From Yoonia sp. (GTDB lineage: Bacteria; Pseudomonadota; Alphaproteobacteria; Rhodobacterales; Rhodobacteraceae): a DNA stretch of 64,000 bases. A model generated the notes under the pieces. That model saw only the letters and a list, made by a program, of their open reading frames with translations. It was not told the origin of the DNA and did no database searches. The translations under genes and the position numbers were made by a program. How positions within the stretch are numbered: the stretch's first letter is position 1; each line of letters starts with the position of its first letter. This document shows positions 4,694 through 30,715 of this stretch, piece by piece. The stretch lies in contig NZ_JAFMHJ010000009.1 in NCBI RefSeq assembly GCF_017854565.1, forward strand, positions 1 through 64,000. Direction: 5' to 3'.

Positions 4694-5922
4694 TGCGCGG
4701 CCCGCGTGAATGCGCCGGTGTCGATACGCGCCACGGCCTCGAGGCCGACATACCGCGCCGCAAGCGATGACGACCCCGCATCAAGCGCGACCAGAACCCT
4801 GATCACCCGCGCGTCGGAATTCGCCGCCGCATCGTCCGAAATCAGGCCCTGCCGCCCCACGGTAAGACCGATGCTTTGCACGGTGCCGCGCAGCGACTGG
4901 CCAAGCGCGGGTGCGGCCAGTTCCACCGGCTGACCCACGGCGACCGCGCTGACGCGGTCCTGCCAGATTTCGACCTCGGCCATCATCACGCCGGTGTCGC
5001 CCATCTCCATGATGCCCTCGGCGGGGGGGCGCTGGCCCGGCGTGGCGTTGATCTCGAGGATCGTGCCGCTTACGGGCGCGCGCACTTCGGCACGGGCCAT
5101 ATCCATCTGCGCGCGGGTCACCTCTGCCTGCGCGGCAGCAACATTGCGGGCCGCGACGACGACATCGGGTTGATCGTCAAGCGCACCGGCGGTGAAACGG
5201 GCCAGTGTCGCCTCTGCGCGCCGGACCGCGAGCGTTGCTTCCTCGGCTGCCGTAAGGGCGGCATCCAGCGTGGCGCTGGTAGAAACGCCGCGGTCGACAA
5301 GGTCTTGGGTCCGCGCAAGGTTTGTCGCAGCCTCGCGCGCTGCGGCGCGGGCCGTATCAAGCGTCGCCTGCGCCTCTGCACGGCTCGCCGCAACGGCGCT
5401 GCGGATCTGGGCCAGTGTCGCCTGCCGCACCGCCAGATTTGCCTCGGCCGTCAGCACCCCGCCTTCCAGCGCCGCGCCGTTGTCGAGGCGCGCAACGGGC
5501 GTACCGCGCGTGACGGTGTCGCCTATCGCCACCAATATCTCGGCCACACGCGCGTCGCCCGCGCCGTAAGGTGCCGCCACGATGGCCACGTCGCCGCGAG
5601 GCATCAGCCGCGCCAGCCCCACCACATCCGTCGGCAGCAACGTTTCGGCGATCTCCTGCGGCAGTGCGATGTCGGGTGGCAGCGCAATCGGGCTGTCAGC
5701 CCCGCCGCCGGGTTGCAAGCCGGTCAGCGCATAGAATTTCTGTAGCGCGGGCGGCTGGTAATACATGCCGATCACCCCGCCCGAAAACATGAAGACCGGG
5801 ATCAGCAGAACAAGCAGATACCGTTTGCGGAGCCCGTGACGCGGCCCCTTTCGAAGGGCTCCCGGCCTGTCCGGATCACGTCCGAGATCAAGGGGCAGAT
5901 CGGGTGAATCTTTCGCAGTCAT
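4690..5922 (-). CDS. periplasmic adaptor (HlyD/DevB family)
   Basis: This is the 410-residue membrane-fusion subunit of the exporter. The start MTAKDSPDLPL at 5922 is chosen because AAGGA sits just upstream; the frame stays open to 6060, but that extension looks non-coding. A membrane anchor (YLLVLLIPVFMFSGGVIGMY) is followed by a lipoyl-like half motif, a long alanine-rich coiled-coil hairpin (about 150-270) and a second barrel region (VRAPVSGTILEINATPGQRP). It links the inner-membrane DevC to an outer-membrane channel. It is first in the adaptor-permease-ATPase operon. Confidence 0.92.
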   Translation of the reverse strand: MTAKDSPDLPLDLGRDPDRPGALRKGPRHGLRKRYLLVLLIPVFMFSGGVIGMYYQPPALQKFYALTGLQPGGGADSPIALPPDIALPQEIAETLLPTDVVGLARLMPRGDVAIVAAPYGAGDARVAEILVAIGDTVTRGTPVARLDNGAALEGGVLTAEANLAVRQATLAQIRSAVAASRAEAQATLDTARAAAREAATNLARTQDLVDRGVSTSATLDAALTAAEEATLAVRRAEATLARFTAGALDDQPDVVVAARNVAAAQAEVTRAQMDMARAEVRAPVSGTILEINATPGQRPPAEGIMEMGDTGVMMAEVEIWQDRVSAVAVGQPVELAAPALGQSLRGTVQSIGLTVGRQGLISDDAAANSDARVIRVLVALDAGSSSLAARYVGLEAVARIDTGAFTRAAQ

Positions 5923-6140
5923 ATCAATGGTCCTTGCCGGTGTTGAAAAAGGGCAGCAGCGGGAATGGGTTATTTCGCCGTCTTTCCCATGGGTCAGCCG
6001 GTGGGCCAGATCATCCGCTGCATGACGTTGTTTTGCAGAACCGGCTTGCGGAACGGTCATTGGTCAGGGCTCTCTTTTTCGTCGGGCTGGTGCGGAGAAG
6101 GCGCCAGCTACGTCTTGTCGCGACTGTTACGGCGTATCGG

Positions 6141-23663: not shown

Positions 23664-23735
23664 CCTTCTTCCGAGATCAAATATCCTGGGGGAGCCCCGG
23701 ACTTGATCCGGGGCGGGGGCAAAGCCCCTAACCAG
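23664..23735. repeat. dispersed repeat copy 2 plus palindromic terminator
   Basis: The stretch begins directly after the dehydrogenase stop with TTCCGAGATCAAATATCC, then CCCCGGA-CTTGA-TCCGGGG (23695-23713) and a GGGGGC-AAA-GCCCC hairpin. It separates convergent genes and probably acts as a bidirectional terminator. The CCCGGA-n5-TCCGGG part also occurs at 29562. Confidence 0.75.
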
Positions 23736-23757: not shown

Positions 23758-24444
23758 TCATTTTTGCGACGGTTTGTCCTTGCCGCGCCACGTCGCCAAC
23801 CAACGCGAAAGGCGGCCCTTCCGCTTCGCGACGCCAGCCTGCACCTCATCGACGCGCTCTCCCGCACTCTCCAACAGCGGATCAACCGTGCGCTCGCGGA
23901 ACTGGCGCCACATGGCGCGGATAAACGCCAACGCGACCATCAAAAAGCCGAAGAAGACGATACTGACCCAAGGAATGATCGTCACATCAGGGCTCGCAAC
24001 CGTCCGCACCCCGATCGCATTGGGGTAAATACTCGCCCAGCGGATACGCCAACCGTAATGGGTGATCACAGCCCACTCATCGCCCTTGGCAATGCGCGCG
24101 GCCTCTGCCTGCAAGTCCGAGCTGTCAAACTTGAAATATGGCGGCCATATCCATCCCGTGTCCTCGTTGCGATAGACCATGACGCCAGTGCTATCGCGCG
24201 GCACGAAACCCAACAGAAACGTCTTTTTCTTATCCGTATTGATCAGGCGCAGATCGCGGGTCGGCTGATCCACCCCGCCGCTGTCGGCCTGCGCATAGAA
24301 AATCCGGTTATAGGCACTGAAATCTGTCCGGATAACTTCGGTCGATGTGATCTTGACCACATCATGCTGCGGCAGCACGTAGTGAAAAAACGCACCGAAC
24401 ACCAACAGCGCCAGAACCCGAACAGTGACCTTAAGACGATGCAT
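23758..24444 (-). CDS. DUF1523 membrane protein (last gene of the AAA operon)
   Basis: The 228-residue protein has an N-terminal membrane segment (VRVLALLVFGAFFHYVLPQ), an extracytoplasmic DUF1523 domain (HDVVKITSTEVIRTD, RLINTDKKKTFLLGFVPRDS, NEDTGWIWPPYFKFDSSDLQ, THYGWRIRWASIYPNAIGV), a second membrane segment (IIPWVSIVFFGFLMVALAFI, about 155-175) and a basic cytoplasmic tail. The function is unknown. It follows the small membrane protein gene by nine bases and is the seventh gene of an operon starting at 30715. Confidence 0.85.
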   Translation of the reverse strand: MHRLKVTVRVLALLVFGAFFHYVLPQHDVVKITSTEVIRTDFSAYNRIFYAQADSGGVDQPTRDLRLINTDKKKTFLLGFVPRDSTGVMVYRNEDTGWIWPPYFKFDSSDLQAEAARIAKGDEWAVITHYGWRIRWASIYPNAIGVRTVASPDVTIIPWVSIVFFGFLMVALAFIRAMWRQFRERTVDPLLESAGERVDEVQAGVAKRKGRLSRWLATWRGKDKPSQK

Positions 24445-24453
24445 CGCAAATCC

Positions 24454-24729
24454 TCAGTTGGTGTTAATCACATAGACAATCACAGAGACGACAATCAACG
24501 GGACCACATAGACCAGTCCAATCAGCTTGGGCCGAAGGGATCGGTGATAGGCCGCCATCCCCTCAGCGATATAGGTATCGCGGGCGGCGGCGTCAGCCCC
24601 TTCGGGCGGATTGGCGTCGAATTCGTCCTCCAACCGTTCACGGCGGACCGACTTGGAATAGACCGCAATCGACACATAGATGATGCTCAGCCCGATAAAG
24701 CCGAAAACAACAAGCTTAATAAACCCCAT
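24454..24729 (-). CDS. small two-helix membrane protein of the AAA operon
   Basis: The 91-residue protein has membrane segments at both ends (LVVFGFIGLSIIYVSIAVY and LIGLVYVVPLIVVSVIVYVI) with an acidic cytoplasmic or periplasmic loop (RRERLEDEFDANPPEGADAA). The start MGFIKLVVFGF is set by AGGAGG upstream and by a one-base overlap (TGATG) with the preceding stop. No family function is known to me. Tight coupling to the DUF6638 gene suggests they work together. Confidence 0.8.
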   Translation of the reverse strand: MGFIKLVVFGFIGLSIIYVSIAVYSKSVRRERLEDEFDANPPEGADAAARDTYIAEGMAAYHRSLRPKLIGLVYVVPLIVVSVIVYVINTN

Positions 24730-26078
24730 CAGCGCCTCCTGCTGACCGCGCCCCATGGGCCAACCCGGTTGATGATATCAGGTTGCTGCACGGCCATGGG
24801 TTCGTCCATCGTGGCATCATGCCCAAACAACGCATCCCGCGTTCCCGCCTTATCAACCTGATACTCGCGGTCAAGAAAATCAACGACATAGGCCTTCTTT
24901 TCATCCGGCCACGTCGCATAGGCCCGATAAAACGCCTCCTTGTGACAGATAAACAACTGCCGAATATCCAGCGGCGTCATCTCGGCCAGCAGCATGTTCA
25001 CCAGATCCGCATCGCCATGCGGCTTGGCCCGCAGCGTGTAGAAATACGCCGGATGCTCTGATGTTATTTTGGGCCATGGCCCATCGTCCTCGGCCCAGCG
25101 GACCAATGCGGCCAGCCCCTGCCATGCCTCTGGCAACAGTTTCGCATGCTGCCGCCCCAAACGGCGCAAATCCCGGCGGGTCGCCCCGGCCAGATCTTCT
25201 TGCATGGATGTCGCAACTGCGGCCACGATGAAATCCATTTTTTGATGCAGGATTGCCGCCGCATCGACCCCGCGCGCCGCGACAATCGGCTCGACCAGAT
25301 CATTGATGTTCAAGAACTTCGCAATCGCTGACCGCTGGCTGAAATCGAACGTGAACGGGATCGGCAGATCGCCCACCGCCGCCTTATCACCCGGCACGAT
25401 TGCCGCTGGATGCGCGACCCCGCGAAACACGTAGATCCCGCCGAAATGATCCGTCCAGAAATTATCCTGCGCAAATTCCATCTGCCGCAAGTTCACCGGA
25501 TTGCGCGATATATCGCCGGTTTCCTTGGCCATGCCAATCATCTGGCCAATCAAGACATCGTCAAACCATGCGTCCTGCTCGTCCTTGAACCGGTCAATCA
25601 GCTTGCCCAGCTTCTTGGCCATGGCCACCGTTCCGCTGGTCGTGTCGGCCTCCATCGTGACCTTGCGAATATCAAACAAACGCGCGGGCGTATCGACCAT
25701 ATAAACCGAATTCACCATCTCGCCCGCCACCGCGTCGCGGGCCGTCAGGGCAAACAACTCGGCCCGGTTCCCTTCAATGAACTGCTTTAAAACCCCCCTC
25801 GAGGTCGAGAATTTCGCGTTGAGCAACGGGGCCCGCGCCTGTTCTGTCGTTAGCAAAATGAACTGGCGATTGACCCCTTGGTGGTTCAGATACAGATCAT
25901 CTTCAAACGCATCGCCAACCTCTGGGCTATACCCGGAAATATCAATATGGAACACATCCAGATCGGTTTCGCGCCCCACAAGATGCTTTAGCGCACGATT
26001 GTACCGCGCGACCAATACCGGACTATCCACCCGAATAAGGTTGCCGAACATCAGGCCCTTTTCAATCAGTCGGTGCAT
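24729..26078 (-). CDS. DUF6638 protein of the AAA operon
   Basis: The 449-residue soluble protein starts MHRLIEKGLMFGNLIRVDS (ATG at 26078, AAGGGGGG six bases before). Conserved-looking blocks are LNHQGVNRQFILLTTEQAR, APLLNAKFSTSRGVLKQFIE, ADTTSGTVAMAKKLGKLIDR, GGIYVFRGVAHPAAIVPGDK and FYTLRAKPHGDADLVNMLL. I can name the family (DUF6638, common in Rhodobacterales) but not a reaction. No signal peptide or membrane segment is seen. It lies between two small membrane protein genes downstream of the AAA ATPase. Confidence 0.82.
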   Translation of the reverse strand: MHRLIEKGLMFGNLIRVDSPVLVARYNRALKHLVGRETDLDVFHIDISGYSPEVGDAFEDDLYLNHQGVNRQFILLTTEQARAPLLNAKFSTSRGVLKQFIEGNRAELFALTARDAVAGEMVNSVYMVDTPARLFDIRKVTMEADTTSGTVAMAKKLGKLIDRFKDEQDAWFDDVLIGQMIGMAKETGDISRNPVNLRQMEFAQDNFWTDHFGGIYVFRGVAHPAAIVPGDKAAVGDLPIPFTFDFSQRSAIAKFLNINDLVEPIVAARGVDAAAILHQKMDFIVAAVATSMQEDLAGATRRDLRRLGRQHAKLLPEAWQGLAALVRWAEDDGPWPKITSEHPAYFYTLRAKPHGDADLVNMLLAEMTPLDIRQLFICHKEAFYRAYATWPDEKKAYVVDFLDREYQVDKAGTRDALFGHDATMDEPMAVQQPDIINRVGPWGAVSRRR

Positions 26079-26093
26079 GCACACCCCCCTTGA

Positions 26094-26435
26094 TCACCAC
26101 GTCTCTTTCACCCACTTGCGCGGCAATCCTGCCACCGACAGCACCATAATCGGTGCCCAGATCATCGCCGCTATCAGGCCCAGCCTGCCAAAGAATACCA
26201 CATTTGCCGCCAGTCCCGGCTCCATGATTTGTGCCACGCTCAACCCCTGCCACAGATACAGGCAGAAAAAGAACAGCCCGCTGATCGCAAACAGCAAAAC
26301 CGTCGATAAAAACGCATTCAGCAACAACGGCTTCACCCCTTCGGGCAACATCCACCCCAACAGACGCGGCACCGAAAATGCGATCCCCGCCAGCACCAGC
26401 GCAGGCAGAAACAATGTGTCCGACAAGACGCCCAA
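26094..26435 (-). CDS. small membrane protein of the AAA operon
   Basis: The 113-residue protein has three hydrophobic segments (TLFLPALVLAGIAFSVPRLL, LNAFLSTVLLFAISGLFFFC, FFGRLGLIAAMIWAPIMVLS). I set the start at TTG 26435, because the frame upstream overlaps the AAA gene and GAAAGGG lies ahead of this TTG. The start is less sure than the gene itself. It begins four bases after the AAA ATPase stop. No known family is recognised. Confidence 0.72.
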   Translation of the reverse strand: MGVLSDTLFLPALVLAGIAFSVPRLLGWMLPEGVKPLLLNAFLSTVLLFAISGLFFFCLYLWQGLSVAQIMEPGLAANVVFFGRLGLIAAMIWAPIMVLSVAGLPRKWVKETW

Positions 26436-26439
26436 TAGA

Positions 26440-28383
26440 CTACCCTTTCTCCGCCAGATACCGACGCTTCGCCTCTTCCTGACGGCCAAAATCACGGACC
26501 ATCGTATCAATCGCCACCTCGTCCGACTTGTCGGCATAGCGGAATTCACTGTCGGCGTAGCGGTTGATTTCCTGAATCACCATGTCCACCGTGATTGGCT
26601 GCCGCAGGTCCTCGATCATTGCTTTTTTGGTGTCATAATCCTTGAACATGAACAGATCAGGGTCTTCCATCCATTCATCGGGCAGTTCAAAATCCATTGC
26701 CCGGACCTTGACGGCATCGGTGATATTCTTGATCGCGCGGCCCGTGAACCGCTCATCCGCCTCCTGAATCGCCTTCAGGTAGGTGCCCATTTTGGCAATC
26801 GTGTCCAGCGCACCTATCTGTGACGAAACCCGGTCATAGACGTTCAGAAGCCCCGGTTCGTGCGGGCGGGCGTGCCCGGCAAAGCTGGCCGCGACCGCCT
26901 TTTTGATCTCTTGCGCGCGGAACAGATCATGATCGCCCACCGGGATCGCATGGTTCTTGCCCATCAGCAGATGCAGGATGTCGATATAATCGTCCCGCGT
27001 CTGCGGGCCATCGACCAGAAACCGGGCGCCCGCGCGTTGGCGCAGCGCATCATCGACATTCTCGGGGTAATTGGAAAACATCCCAAACGTGCAATTTCCG
27101 CGCACCACGGTGTTCGCCCCGGCAAAGCTTTCCATCAGCACCGCCGTGATCTCCAGTTGCCCAGCCGAAGATTGCCGGTCCCCCCGCTTGCCTGCCAGTT
27201 GGTCAATATCGTCAATCGTGCCAAAGCCGATCACCTGCGGATCAAGCACATTGTTGATGAACGCCTTCGCGTTTTGCCCCGACTTGCCCTGATAACTATC
27301 TATACTATCGGTGCTCAGGTTCTGATAGCGAAACGGATAGCCCGCCACCTGGCAATAGTCATTCACCAAGCCCGCCATCATCTGAATAAGGGTCGTCTTG
27401 CCGGTGCCCGGCTTGCCATCGCCCATGAACGTAAAGATAAAGCCGCCCAATTCCGCGAACGGGTTCAGCCGCCGGTCAAAATCATAGGCCATCACCATCT
27501 TGGCCAGCTTCATCGCCTGATACTTGGCGATGTGGTTGCCCACGACCTCATGCGGCTTCTTGAAGGTCATCGTCAGGGTCGATCCCTTGGCCTTGCGCGC
27601 CGGAGTGAACCCCTGCACCACGAAATCATCGGCCTCGACCCGCCAGCTTGCCTGCAAGAACGGCGCCAATCGACCTGCCGTCGTGGCGCGTGCGGCAACC
27701 TTTTCCATCAACTGTTCGCAATAGGCCAGCAGGGTCGCTATCAGCGTGGCTTCGTCGGTGGCGAACTGACCCAGCTTTTGGTCCAACTCCCAAAGCGCGC
27801 CATGCAGGGCGAGTGCGGCGTTATCGGTCAGCACCTCATCGACGCTGCCAACCTCGACACTCTGCTCGCCCGCGCGTGATGCCAGCAGCGATGCCGTGGC
27901 ATTGGCAAATGTGTATAGCACCACCAAAGATTGCGCCGCCAACAGCTCGGTAAACGCGTCGCCCTGCGCAGGCGGCAACCGCCCCTCAAGATTGGCGCGC
28001 TTCAGCTCGACCAACGCGGTCTGCTCGGCATAGGCATCCCCAATCGCCAGCGCGATCGACAGCGCCCGGCGCAGCGCATGGGCACAAGCCGCCTGCGCGG
28101 GTGACGTCAGCGGATCATCGTCATCGGTTTCGGCGATCCGGTCCAGCAACCGCACCCCTTCGGCACGCGCCGTCGACCGTGTGACAAGCCCCGGCGTGGT
28201 GGACCGAAACCTGCGGCGGCCCATCGCGGCAACATCTGGCGACCGTTCCGGCACCTCAAGCGATAATCGGGCCTGCGCCAGCCGCGGGGTATGATCGACC
28301 GCCATCAGCATTTCCGCCACTGCGGCGTAATGCTTGCGAATATCAACCTCGCGCAGTTCCATCTGGTCACTTGTCTGGCTCAT
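26440..28383 (-). CDS. AAA-family ATPase, core of an uncharacterised operon
   Basis: The 647-residue protein has a helical N-terminal region of about 300 residues and one AAA domain: Walker A GKPGTGKTT (323-331), Walker B GFGTIDDID (386-394), a sensor-1-like FGMFSNYPEN (434-442) and an arginine-finger-like DDALRQRAGARF (444-455). The C-terminal part (about 470-640) is helical. No nuclease, protease or membrane segment is seen. AAA proteins usually remodel protein complexes. Its neighbours (coiled-coil protein upstream, three membrane proteins and DUF6638 downstream) suggest a membrane-linked machine, but this is an inference. Confidence 0.85.
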   Translation of the reverse strand: MSQTSDQMELREVDIRKHYAAVAEMLMAVDHTPRLAQARLSLEVPERSPDVAAMGRRRFRSTTPGLVTRSTARAEGVRLLDRIAETDDDDPLTSPAQAACAHALRRALSIALAIGDAYAEQTALVELKRANLEGRLPPAQGDAFTELLAAQSLVVLYTFANATASLLASRAGEQSVEVGSVDEVLTDNAALALHGALWELDQKLGQFATDEATLIATLLAYCEQLMEKVAARATTAGRLAPFLQASWRVEADDFVVQGFTPARKAKGSTLTMTFKKPHEVVGNHIAKYQAMKLAKMVMAYDFDRRLNPFAELGGFIFTFMGDGKPGTGKTTLIQMMAGLVNDYCQVAGYPFRYQNLSTDSIDSYQGKSGQNAKAFINNVLDPQVIGFGTIDDIDQLAGKRGDRQSSAGQLEITAVLMESFAGANTVVRGNCTFGMFSNYPENVDDALRQRAGARFLVDGPQTRDDYIDILHLLMGKNHAIPVGDHDLFRAQEIKKAVAASFAGHARPHEPGLLNVYDRVSSQIGALDTIAKMGTYLKAIQEADERFTGRAIKNITDAVKVRAMDFELPDEWMEDPDLFMFKDYDTKKAMIEDLRQPITVDMVIQEINRYADSEFRYADKSDEVAIDTMVRDFGRQEEAKRRYLAEKG

Positions 28384-28414
28384 GCCGTCTCCTTGCCGTA
28401 GGGTTCACCCCAAC

Positions 28415-29536
28415 TTATCTGTAACTCAACACCCGCCCGCCCGCGCTGACCACAAACTTGCGGACATCGCCAAAGCCGGCTGGGTTACGCTCTGCCAGCG
28501 CCTGATAGGGGCGCTGCGGCATGATCAACGATCGTTCCATGCGCGTCGCGCCGCTATCGGCCCCGCTACCCGCAAATGGATCAAGCGCAAATATCTGCCG
28601 CTCGACCGTGCCGAACCAGCCCGATTTCACCGTTTCAACCCGTTCTGACACCAGCTCTTCTTCGGTCCAGACCAGCGCCCAATCCTCGCCCGAGGGGGCC
28701 CGTGCCGCCTCCAGCACCTCGCGCAGCGGACCCGACTGCAGCGTGAACGCGCTCGAATACATCGGCCCGATGTGGAACCGCCGCAGCCGCACCGGATGCA
28801 GATCGTCGAAATCTTGATCAAACCCCTTGGCAATCGTCAGCAACTTCAGATGTGCCACCGATTGCGCCATCAGATGCGCCTGCACCTCGGGCCAGCGGCG
28901 TTCATCTTTGGGCAGACCTGTGCGGCCCGTATCCTCGACGTCCATCAAATAGATCGTCGGCAGGTTCACCTGACTGTCATAGACCGCCCAATGCAGCAGA
29001 AACCGGCGCCGGGTTCCCTCTGTGCCCAGCCATACCGCCTGCGGGTCATTGCGCGCCCAAAACTGATCACCGCGCTGCAGCTCTTGATAATATAGCCGCT
29101 GCGACAGCGCGTATTGCAGCTTTGTCGGGATCGCCTGTTCGCTCAGGATCACGCGGACCATCTGATCCTTAAGCGCCTCTGACGATGGCAGCGTCACCAA
29201 ATGCCGCTCTGCCTGAAGCGCATCATTGGCCATCTCCAACAGCTCCTGATAGACAGGAAAGCCGCTTTCGACGCGGTCAAACGTCAACTGCCCCGCATGG
29301 GCAAACCGCCCGGCGAAATGGTACTTGTGCGCCAGCGCGGTAAAGGTCCAGTTGAGGCTCGTCAGATATCGGGCCAAAACCGCAATATCCTGCCGCGAAA
29401 ACCGGCCCTCCGCCTCCATCGTCGCGGCCACCTTGGTCAGGTAGCCGGTGATCTTGGCGAACTTGCCGAAATACCGGCGCGTCACGCGGGTATCTTCCAG
29501 CTTCATGTGGTCTGCGGAAAGGTTCGTCTGGGTCAT
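28415..29536 (-). CDS. conserved protein of unknown function in the AAA operon
   Basis: The 373-residue protein starts MTQTNLSADHMKLEDTRVTR (a later Met at residue 11 is possible). The first half is helical (RRYFGKFAKITGYLTKVAAT, ALAHKYHFAGRFAHAGQLTF). The second half contains LLHWAVYDSQVNLPTIYLMD and a conserved-looking C-terminus (KFVVSAGGRVLSYR). No motif of an enzyme class is visible, nor a signal peptide. It lies 31 bases before the AAA gene and 96 bases after the coiled-coil gene. I do not recognise the family. Confidence 0.75.
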   Translation of the reverse strand: MTQTNLSADHMKLEDTRVTRRYFGKFAKITGYLTKVAATMEAEGRFSRQDIAVLARYLTSLNWTFTALAHKYHFAGRFAHAGQLTFDRVESGFPVYQELLEMANDALQAERHLVTLPSSEALKDQMVRVILSEQAIPTKLQYALSQRLYYQELQRGDQFWARNDPQAVWLGTEGTRRRFLLHWAVYDSQVNLPTIYLMDVEDTGRTGLPKDERRWPEVQAHLMAQSVAHLKLLTIAKGFDQDFDDLHPVRLRRFHIGPMYSSAFTLQSGPLREVLEAARAPSGEDWALVWTEEELVSERVETVKSGWFGTVERQIFALDPFAGSGADSGATRMERSLIMPQRPYQALAERNPAGFGDVRKFVVSAGGRVLSYR

Positions 29537-29561
29537 ATCAGTCCAAGCAAAGCACAACGCA

Positions 29562-29582
29562 GTCCCGGACCTGATCCGGGAC
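29562..29582. repeat. palindromic repeat inside the AAA operon
   Basis: GTCCCGGA-CCTGA-TCCGGGAC is a perfect inverted repeat with eight-base arms, between the coiled-coil gene and the next gene. The same core occurs at 23695-23713. It could stabilise or attenuate the operon mRNA. Confidence 0.65.
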
Positions 29583-29632
29583 CTCGGGTCATCATCAATG
29601 GTCCCGGGTCACACCCAAGACCTGCGCACACG

Positions 29633-30715
29633 TCAGGATTCCGCCCCATACTGATTGCTGTCATGCTTCTCCACGATCTTTGCGAACCGCCGAATAAACC
29701 GCTCGTCCGCCTTCGCCTTCTGCTCCAGCACTTCGCGGGCAAAAACCATATGATCCCCATGCGCTTCCAGCATATCGGCCATCCGTGCGTTTGTGGCGGC
29801 ACCAATGGCGGCCATCGCAGTCTGCGCCTCCTGGTCGGTCTTCACGCCGATTTCGTTGATCTTATGCGCCACGTCTTGCTGTTGCGCGGTCTTCAGCGAC
29901 TTGGACAGCGCATCGTACAACACAACACGCTGCTTGGTGTCGGTCTGCAATTTGTTGATCAGCACCATCTGCGTCGCTGCCTGATTTTGCAGCGAATCCG
30001 TCCAGGTTTTCCCCTTCTCGATATACCGCTCCAGCGTCTGTGATTTCGCCAAATGCACCTGCTCGCCTTGCACCATCTCATTGTACGTGCTGTTCAGCGC
30101 GGCCAATTCCGTCTCAAGCTTGGTGCGCGCCGCCGCATCCTGCTCAACCGCGATTTTACCCTCAAGCGTGATCATCGACGGGTCCAGCGCCAAAATATCC
30201 GCGCGCAGCGTCTCAAGAGTGCCCACCGCCAATTCCCGCTCTTCCAACGTCGCGGTCAGGTTCTGTTCGACACGCACCTTCTGCTCGTTCAGCACAGCCA
30301 ATTGGCCTTCCAACAGCTTCAGGATCACATCCGATTTGCTGATCAAATCCTGCAACTTGTCATCGACCGATGCGGTGCGGATACGTTCCTGCCGCATGCT
30401 GTCCGCCTTGGCCTTGCTGAAAAAGCCGATCACGCTTTCCATGCCGGTCTTCGACCGCATCTCATCGAAATCCTTGGAAAACGCGGTCGTCACATCGTCC
30501 AGCCCCATAATCAGTTCGGCGATATTGGCGTTCATCAGCTCGGTATGGGCATGCACGTCCTCAAGGCTGGCATTTTCGATATCCACCGAAATATCCGTAC
30601 CTTCGGCCATTTTATTGCGTGCCGCTTCGATCCGACTGGTCATTTCAGAAATTTTGCTTTGCGCCTGGGCCACCTGGGCCTGTGATTCCTGAATCTGGGT
30701 GTCGAAACTGGCCAT
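29633..30715 (-). CDS. long coiled-coil protein, first gene of the AAA operon
   Basis: The 360-residue protein is almost wholly helical and heptad-rich (QESQAQVAQAQSKISEMTSR, VLNEQKVRVEQNLTATLEER, RTKLETELAALNSTYNEMVQ). It has no cysteine, signal peptide or membrane segment. The helix pattern around 130-300 is loosely reminiscent of TelA-type toxic-anion-resistance proteins, but I see no diagnostic motif, so this is only a hint. It is cytoplasmic by sequence. It presumably acts as a scaffold or substrate for the AAA ATPase encoded downstream (inference). Confidence 0.75.
   Translation of the reverse strand: MASFDTQIQESQAQVAQAQSKISEMTSRIEAARNKMAEGTDISVDIENASLEDVHAHTELMNANIAELIMGLDDVTTAFSKDFDEMRSKTGMESVIGFFSKAKADSMRQERIRTASVDDKLQDLISKSDVILKLLEGQLAVLNEQKVRVEQNLTATLEERELAVGTLETLRADILALDPSMITLEGKIAVEQDAAARTKLETELAALNSTYNEMVQGEQVHLAKSQTLERYIEKGKTWTDSLQNQAATQMVLINKLQTDTKQRVVLYDALSKSLKTAQQQDVAHKINEIGVKTDQEAQTAMAAIGAATNARMADMLEAHGDHMVFAREVLEQKAKADERFIRRFAKIVEKHDSNQYGAES

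Follow-up and report, generated by a model that had tools for sequence, protein, structure and literature searches.

Defence systems such as CBASS and Lamassu combine a conserved core with a swappable effector, and TelA/Ter is a helical soluble protein found in stress operons. One account describes classical AAA proteins encoded with PspA or Snf7 as likely membrane remodellers (PMC11237479), and another places prrC within a type IC restriction locus and mentions further accessory genes regarded as probable toxins (PMC12707154). Here we describe an operon that shares features with each of these. It lies in a 64,000-nucleotide stretch of Yoonia sp. DNA (Rhodobacteraceae; contig NZ_JAFMHJ010000009.1 of assembly GCF_017854565.1, positions 1 to 64,000), hereafter the window, and consists of seven genes (G1 to G7), among them a coiled-coil protein (G1), a AAA ATPase (G3), a DUF6638 protein (G5) and a DUF1523 membrane protein (G7). 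We report that its core genes are co-inherited, and that two junctions between them receive unrelated genes in close relatives. With a probability that we put at about 0.45, the operon would encode an ATP-driven, membrane-linked machine equipped with exchangeable effector-like genes and engaged in phage or envelope conflict.

All seven open reading frames (ORFs) were confirmed, lying close together on the minus strand as the first-pass annotation of the sequence had described them. The series begins with G1 (29633..30715), a coiled-coil protein of 360 aa, and G2 (28415..29536), a 373-aa protein of unknown fold, followed by the 647-aa AAA ATPase G3 (26440..28383; PF00004, E 1.3e-11), the small membrane protein G4 (26094..26435; 113 aa, TTG start) and the 449-aa DUF6638 protein G5 (PF20343, E 1.9e-231), which occupies 24729..26078 from an ATG start or 24729..26084 from a GTG start. 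It is completed by G6 (24454..24729), a small membrane protein of about 91 aa conserved as a partner in Rhodobacteraceae, and by the 228-aa DUF1523 protein G7 (23758..24444; PF07509, E 2.2e-57). A Pfam scan of the seven proteins returned no match over the curated cut-off for G1, G2, G4 or G6. The genes are separated by 96 bp (G1-G2), 31 bp (G2-AAA), 4 bp (AAA-G4), 9-15 bp (G4-DUF6638) and 9 bp (G6-DUF1523), and DUF6638 and G6 overlap by one base (TGATG).

That these genes belong together, as the first-pass annotation had proposed, is borne out in relatives, where they are largely not scattered. We hand-picked 40 Rhodobacteraceae loci of about 20 kb out of the 91 genomes in which DUF6638 had been matched. 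The order G1, G2, AAA, DUF6638, DUF1523 holds in 39 of them, far above chance; the exception (L071) is a remnant holding only the tail of DUF6638 and DUF1523. Selection by the AAA gene gave a similar picture, with G1 in 78, G2 in 79, DUF6638 in 74 and DUF1523 in 72 of 80 loci. DUF6638 follows in 74 of the 77 AAA-selected loci long enough to judge: of the six without it, three (L085, L125 and L149) end within about 630 bases of the AAA gene, and three (L101, L126 and L138) have 10 kb free of DUF6638. The core set is thus not quite unbreakable.

DUF6638 occurs in 90 of 198 Rhodobacteraceae genomes, sampled at one per genus, and in three of 190 genomes drawn across the class, all three of them Rhodobacteraceae; class-wide profile searches with AAA and with G2 likewise returned three of 190 genomes each, all from this family. 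With a broader AAA profile, a phylum-wide search found 26 of 398 genomes: the same family supplied 14, a Rhizobiaceae-like family ten, and a further family of the class and another class one each. Named records include Sinorhizobium, Shinella, Rhizobium and Vibrio, and Pfam identifies their fourth core gene, too, as DUF6638 (8.2e-76 for Sinorhizobium, 2.7e-59 for Vibrio). Because Rhizobiaceae loci have a DUF2333 membrane protein in the place where Rhodobacteraceae carry G6 and DUF1523, the core consists of four co-inherited proteins (G1, G2, AAA and DUF6638), and the membrane partner that accompanies them can be replaced. Over 36 loci the pairwise distances of these four proteins show correlations of 0.94-0.97, a figure that includes their shared phylogeny.

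The idea that all seven genes form one fixed set, also part of the first-pass annotation, did not survive this comparison: G4 is exchangeable, its family contributing 35 of the 130 ORFs found between AAA and DUF6638 (slot 2; 26079..26439 in the window, no strand), and a second slot exists between G1 and G2 (slot 1; 29537..29632, no strand). In relatives slot 1 receives small membrane-protein genes; in the window it contains no gene, only a palindromic repeat (29562-29582), a second copy of which lies just downstream of the operon (23694-23714). A pattern built from the first copy gave three matches, one site being counted on both strands, against 0.01 expected.

Gene calls came from a home-made ORF picker instead of a trained gene finder, and a slot counted as filled when it held an ORF of 70 aa or longer in the same orientation as the operon; the survey covered 123 distinct loci, that is, 128 loci minus five duplicate genomes (counts over 128 loci include the duplicates). 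An extra ORF is present in 95 of 123 loci at AAA|DUF6638, in 53 of 122 at G1|G2 and in 5 of 123 at G2|AAA. Between DUF6638 and the membrane gene there is a single small ORF, where G6 lies, in 110 of 119 loci; nine have none past the filter, and no locus has two. The slot-2 set of 130 ORFs (60 aa or more), which excludes the six AAA-selected loci lacking DUF6638 (three that end soon after AAA, three without DUF6638 within 10 kb), fell into 54 BLAST clusters, the largest (35 ORFs) being the family of the window's G4. G4 does not belong to the core; it is the gene most often met in a hypervariable slot. In 100 filled loci, a 4-base overlap joins cargo to the AAA stop in 39 and to the DUF6638 start in 44. 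Compared with the core genes beside it, the cargo is on average 5.3 points poorer in G+C, being the lower of the two in 72 of 100 loci.

This cargo turns over between close relatives. At an AAA identity of 95% or more, 9 of 46 locus pairs with an occupied slot 2 on both sides have related cargo, as against 94 of 94 pairs for G6; at 90-95% AAA identity the corresponding figures are 27 of 60 and 66 of 66, all from non-independent pairs, and Ruegeria-type loci make up most of the listed close pairs whose cargo is unrelated. Within these Ruegeria-type loci, slot 2 holds genes that cluster with the AbiJ-type gene of L033 (in L112), the Mrr-type gene of L146 (in L128) and the putAbiC-type gene of L038 (in L092 and L114), as well as several mutually unrelated membrane proteins. 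Since close relatives carry unrelated cargo between flanks that are conserved, the operon can on this count be classed as one with exchangeable cargo. Two of the rare ORFs between G2 and AAA are long (L146:8401-9966, 521 aa; L101:8363-9964, 533 aa), and the former resembles a membrane glycosyltransferase by eye.

How the cargo is replaced may be read from identity at fourfold-degenerate sites, calculated per 50 codons in 16 Ruegeria-type loci (13 of them Ruegeria). On either side of slot 1, G1 rises from 0.50 to 0.82 and 0.80 at its end (its last partial block, of few codons, is at 0.29) and G2 starts at 0.80 before falling to 0.50 and 0.63; around slot 2, AAA passes from 0.61, 0.55 and 0.52 early to 0.87, 0.69, 0.86 and 0.80 late, and DUF6638 from 0.88, 0.84 and 0.82 at its start to 0.50-0.64. 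DUF1523 is flat at 0.39-0.53. High synonymous identity on the borders of both slots is the pattern that would be expected if cassettes were replaced through homologous recombination within the core genes on either side. This signature is strong in the Ruegeria-type loci and weak or absent in other groups. A mixed group of 11 loci displays a mild rise (DUF6638 from 0.68 to 0.47-0.53 away from the slot), and in the window's own Yoonia/Loktanella group (12 loci, slot 2 always occupied by G4) the start of G2 is at 0.63, the end of G1 at 0.52-0.54 against mostly 0.41-0.50 elsewhere, but the start of DUF6638 at only 0.48.

As to its nature, the cargo is predominantly membrane-associated by prediction, a segment being called by a crude hydropathy rule in 90 of 124 slot-2 and 54 of 59 slot-1 ORFs. 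We compared 48 slot-2 representatives (six of 54 having been dropped as apparently spurious) with 45 flank controls (nine of 54, from the distant loci L166-L202, having been dropped). At 1e-3 the representatives matched 11 Pfam families, Mrr_cat, Mrr_N, DUF559, MTES_1575, NA-iREase1, PIN_10, DUF433, AbiJ_NTD4, DUF2971, HATPase_c_2 and RRG7, the HATPase_c_2 match being below its own cut-off in a single scan. Single scans added putAbiC (L038), Fic (L199, at G2|AAA) and a sub-threshold HNH (L040); L038 also matches AbiP at 1.7e-6, and the representative of its cluster, L114, has no putAbiC match at 1e-3. Twenty-three PADLOC models were matched at 1e-3 among the cargo representatives, several by the same protein, compared with one among the flank controls, and five of ten cargo proteins picked as promising and scanned singly had a PADLOC match at 1e-3 or better. 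The 25 Pfam families listed, of 56 in the flank controls, are all ordinary metabolic, transport or structural ones. Slot 2 is enriched in toxin- and defence-type genes. DUF559 in particular occupies it in five of nine Rhizobiaceae loci and in two Rhodobacteraceae loci.

The small membrane cargo might have been one diverged family; this we rejected, as only 36 of 124 slot-2 ORFs, the window's G4 included, join the G4 profile at 1e-3 upon iteration. A [WF]xP motif near the cargo C-terminus is present in 47 of 79 proteins against 18.7 in shuffles, with G4 members accounting for much of the excess.

Among the core proteins the ATPase is the most readily interpreted. In alignments of 29 Rhodobacteraceae sequences and of 15 wider ones, the Walker A motif (GDGxPGTGKT), an aromatic YQG pore loop, the sensor-1 asparagine and three arginines of the finger region, the SRH (second region of homology) arginines, are invariant. 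The first-pass annotation had expected from intact motifs that the ATPase is active. Walker A and the finger arginines agree with this, but Walker B ends in Asp-Asp (IDDID in the window) rather than the usual Asp-Glu in every aligned member, a phage-like copy (see below) included. Since the second acid of Walker B is Asp and not Glu, we regard the protein as probably, and not certainly, a normal hydrolysing motor. Its mean column identity over the 29 Rhodobacteraceae sequences is 78%, and its best match among solved structures is the ATPase domain of an i-AAA protease (E 1.7e-5 and 7.5e-5), a likeness at the superfamily level only; a Pfam scan found no protease domain in it.

G1 has a mean column identity of 83% (28 sequences), with relatives up to 45% identical in Rhizobiaceae and 38% in Vibrio, and G2 is about 30% identical to its relatives in Vibrio and Sinorhizobium. 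Kinship of G1 with PspA/ESCRT-III (PF04012) gained no support by profile, with an hhalign probability of 1.1% and no Pfam match, the genome's own PspA giving 96% as positive control; nor did a relationship to TelA (PF05816), suspected by eye, at 2.0% and again without a Pfam match. The source genome has separate TelA and PspA/IM30 genes elsewhere (C33:25939-26928 and C79:16203-16871), so G1 substitutes for neither. A comparison of G2 with DUF6638 did not support their being related to each other, and a search of solved structures found no relative of G1, G2 or DUF6638 (best E 0.047, 0.63 and 0.33, respectively). The operon was also tried as a known anti-phage system, and with PADLOC 2.0 its seven proteins gave only weak coiled-coil and generic AAA matches, that of the ATPase being to TRIP13 (E 1.1e-5). 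The initial view of an operon without described function, built around a conserved AAA protein of classical type, is upheld; none of the core proteins has a specific PADLOC match.

The core is also found in a phage-like contig. This IMG/VR contig of 359,044 bases carries, in order, a DUF2333-like gene (23% identity over 237 aa, 2.6e-7), G1 (47%), G2 (34%), AAA (47%) and DUF6638 (35%). In the 39.5 kb that we examined (62 ORFs found, 46 scanned), PHROGs matches comprise DNA topoisomerase II subunits, an ATP-dependent protease, a DNA polymerase exonuclease subunit, HNH endonucleases, methyltransferases and a virion structural protein, alongside two tRNAs; the one terminase model searched (PF03237) had no match on the contig. 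The contig very probably represents a jumbo phage. By eye only, a pair of small genes at its right end are spanin-like. The window's AAA had no match among annotated phages; for the AAA of the contig, generic AAA proteins from six records gave partial matches only, covering 24-29% of its length. A second match in the viral collection, of G1 alone, is situated at the end of a 51-kb contig and is 83% identical to the Sinorhizobium G1; this contig need not be viral.

Several further loci bear on the surroundings and possible transfer of the operon. In a genome of another class (L195), G1, G2, AAA, DUF6638 and DUF1523 occur in order and are nested among Rhodobacteraceae sequences in the tree, which suggests transfer between classes. 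In two Vibrio species the core is located beside an mfd gene on replicons of 0.88-0.94 Mb (L167, L207 and L208), and the AAA protein of L167 shares 98-100% identity with those of four large Vibrio replicons. Plasmid pSK03 of R. leguminosarum (L168:7794-10148) has, beside DUF2333, a gene that resembles G1 but has diverged (32% over 203 aa), without G2, AAA or DUF6638, and shares choline-transporter and thymidine-kinase neighbours with the Sinorhizobium locus; the pair is either a remnant or a minimal form. Of 128 loci, 35 have a creatinase-type gene upstream and 34 a converging aldehyde-dehydrogenase-type gene downstream. In L196 a PspA/IM30 gene (5404-6111; 2.2e-25) is found near the operon, past DUF1523 and one divergent gene.

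These observations could be accommodated by the following scheme. The four co-inherited proteins would form an ATP-driven machine, tied to the inner membrane by the small membrane partners (G6 and DUF1523, or DUF2333 in Rhizobiaceae), in which the AAA ring may thread or remodel a partner via its YQG pore loop, with G1 as putative scaffold and G2 and DUF6638 as putative adaptors. Cassettes would enter the G1|G2 and AAA|DUF6638 slots by homologous recombination within the adjoining core genes, bringing mostly membrane proteins of 70-140 aa together with nuclease, PIN, Fic and Abi-type proteins; because the cargo ORFs often overlap core genes, they are probably translationally coupled to them. 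The machine might then sense or handle envelope damage or intrusion, for instance by phage, with the slot protein serving as an interchangeable effector or adaptor. Of the membrane-linked remodelling machine originally envisaged, the membrane association remains plausible; remodelling would be a putative role, given that G1 matches neither PspA/ESCRT-III nor TelA profiles. A bolder version, which we consider doubtful, is that the operon typifies a new class of conflict system, an inner-membrane AAA/coiled-coil machine with interchangeable effectors that homologous recombination swaps within a genus at two fixed operon slots, the jumbo-phage copy being perhaps an exclusion or counter-defence device.

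The strongest competitor, tenable but likewise short of an even chance in our estimation, gives the core a housekeeping or envelope-stress role, as a PSP- or ESCRT-III/Vps4-like machine, and holds that the slots are simply a well-expressed dock for hitch-hiking defence and orphan genes. Proteins engaged in an arms race are mostly less conserved than G1 and AAA, and the high conservation of these two may reflect a housekeeping role. The genes flanking the operon are ordinary, with no defence island, and their position is partly conserved (the creatinase and aldehyde dehydrogenase types noted above). Cargo is not obligatory for the operon, because 13 of 116 Rhodobacteraceae-type loci have none past the filter (at least five of the 13 with gaps of more than 400 bp, possibly harbouring missed genes) and three Vibrio records examined have none in slot 2. 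The PspA/IM30 gene near the operon in L196, and the membrane remodelling to which classical AAA proteins with PspA or Snf7 have been tied (PMC11237479), point in the same direction. A mere dock, however, does not readily account for the concentration of cargo at two junctions, its tight coupling to the core through frequent 4-base overlaps, its mostly uniform physical type (small membrane proteins) or the presence of DUF559 at AAA|DUF6638 in both Rhizobiaceae and Rhodobacteraceae, all of which favour a machine with exchangeable effectors.

Besides those that speak for a dock, a number of other observations weigh against the machine with exchangeable effectors. DUF6638 is not obligatory, as L101 and L126 have G1-G2-AAA with 10 kb downstream free of it, and L138 (10001-11929) has a solitary AAA gene with no other core gene within 10 kb on either side. 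Most cargo is without known function, its membrane character depends on the hydropathy rule already mentioned, and against defence models the core proteins themselves yield only the weak or generic matches described. Nor is the recombination signature uniform. In the Ruegeria-type loci AAA is already at 0.80 at codons 301-350, its strongly conserved regions being high too, and the peaks there are independent of the present cargo, because a subset of four loci, three of them without a filtered slot-2 ORF, repeats the pattern; in the Yoonia/Loktanella group, blocks inside G2 (0.65) and AAA (0.59) equal the values at the slot borders; and in five Rhizobiaceae loci, of which three carry DUF559 at AAA|DUF6638, there is no peak.

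It is improbable that the operon serves the quality control of membrane proteins, with the AAA ring extracting or inserting small membrane proteins and the slot genes being its clients or adaptors: the abundance of predicted membrane segments in both slots and the match of AAA to an i-AAA protease would fit, but that match is at superfamily level, a Pfam scan found no protease domain, and nuclease- and toxin-type genes occupy the same slot. A fixed seven-gene membrane remodelling machine without any conflict role would account for the conserved core with G6 and DUF1523, but hardly for an exchangeable G4 whose family is a minority in its own slot, nor for a G1 without PspA profile match, and we consider it very improbable.

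The marker of this operon, DUF6638, is present in nearly half of the Rhodobacteraceae genera sampled, yet the operon's proteins are DUFs or unnamed. Our literature search found no mention of DUF6638; the publications on DUF1523, and those returned by further searches, do not point to the present operon by their titles and the openings of their abstracts, and DUF2333 turns up in connection with a type VI secretion locus. By their nature the slots trap small genes of the toxin, Abi and membrane-protein kinds: a single junction yielded about fifty clusters that are uncharacterised. If core and cargo cooperate, the operon would represent an undescribed immune or envelope machine; if they do not, it would be an unusual core operon that serves as a dock for defence genes. 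Both readings are directly testable in marine bacteria.

Compared with known systems, the operon resembles TelA/Ter in having a helical soluble protein in an operon, and differs in that G1 is not TelA by profile. CBASS and Lamassu, with which we compared it through PADLOC only, have the same combination of a conserved core and a variable effector-like gene; in contrast to them, no core protein here has a specific PADLOC match and the cargo is optional. ESCRT-III/Vps4 and PspA-AAA sets also place a coiled-coil gene beside a classical AAA gene, with membrane partners in longer operons (PMC11237479), whereas here G1 gives no PspA profile match, no MIT domain was found by Pfam and the cargo is exchangeable; the resemblance is one of architecture. 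Type I restriction-modification loci with embedded accessory genes such as prrC (PMC12707154) contain a toxin-type gene inside a conserved operon, and although the present core has no restriction or modification gene by Pfam, two slots and mostly small membrane cargo, they offer the closest analogue for its slots.

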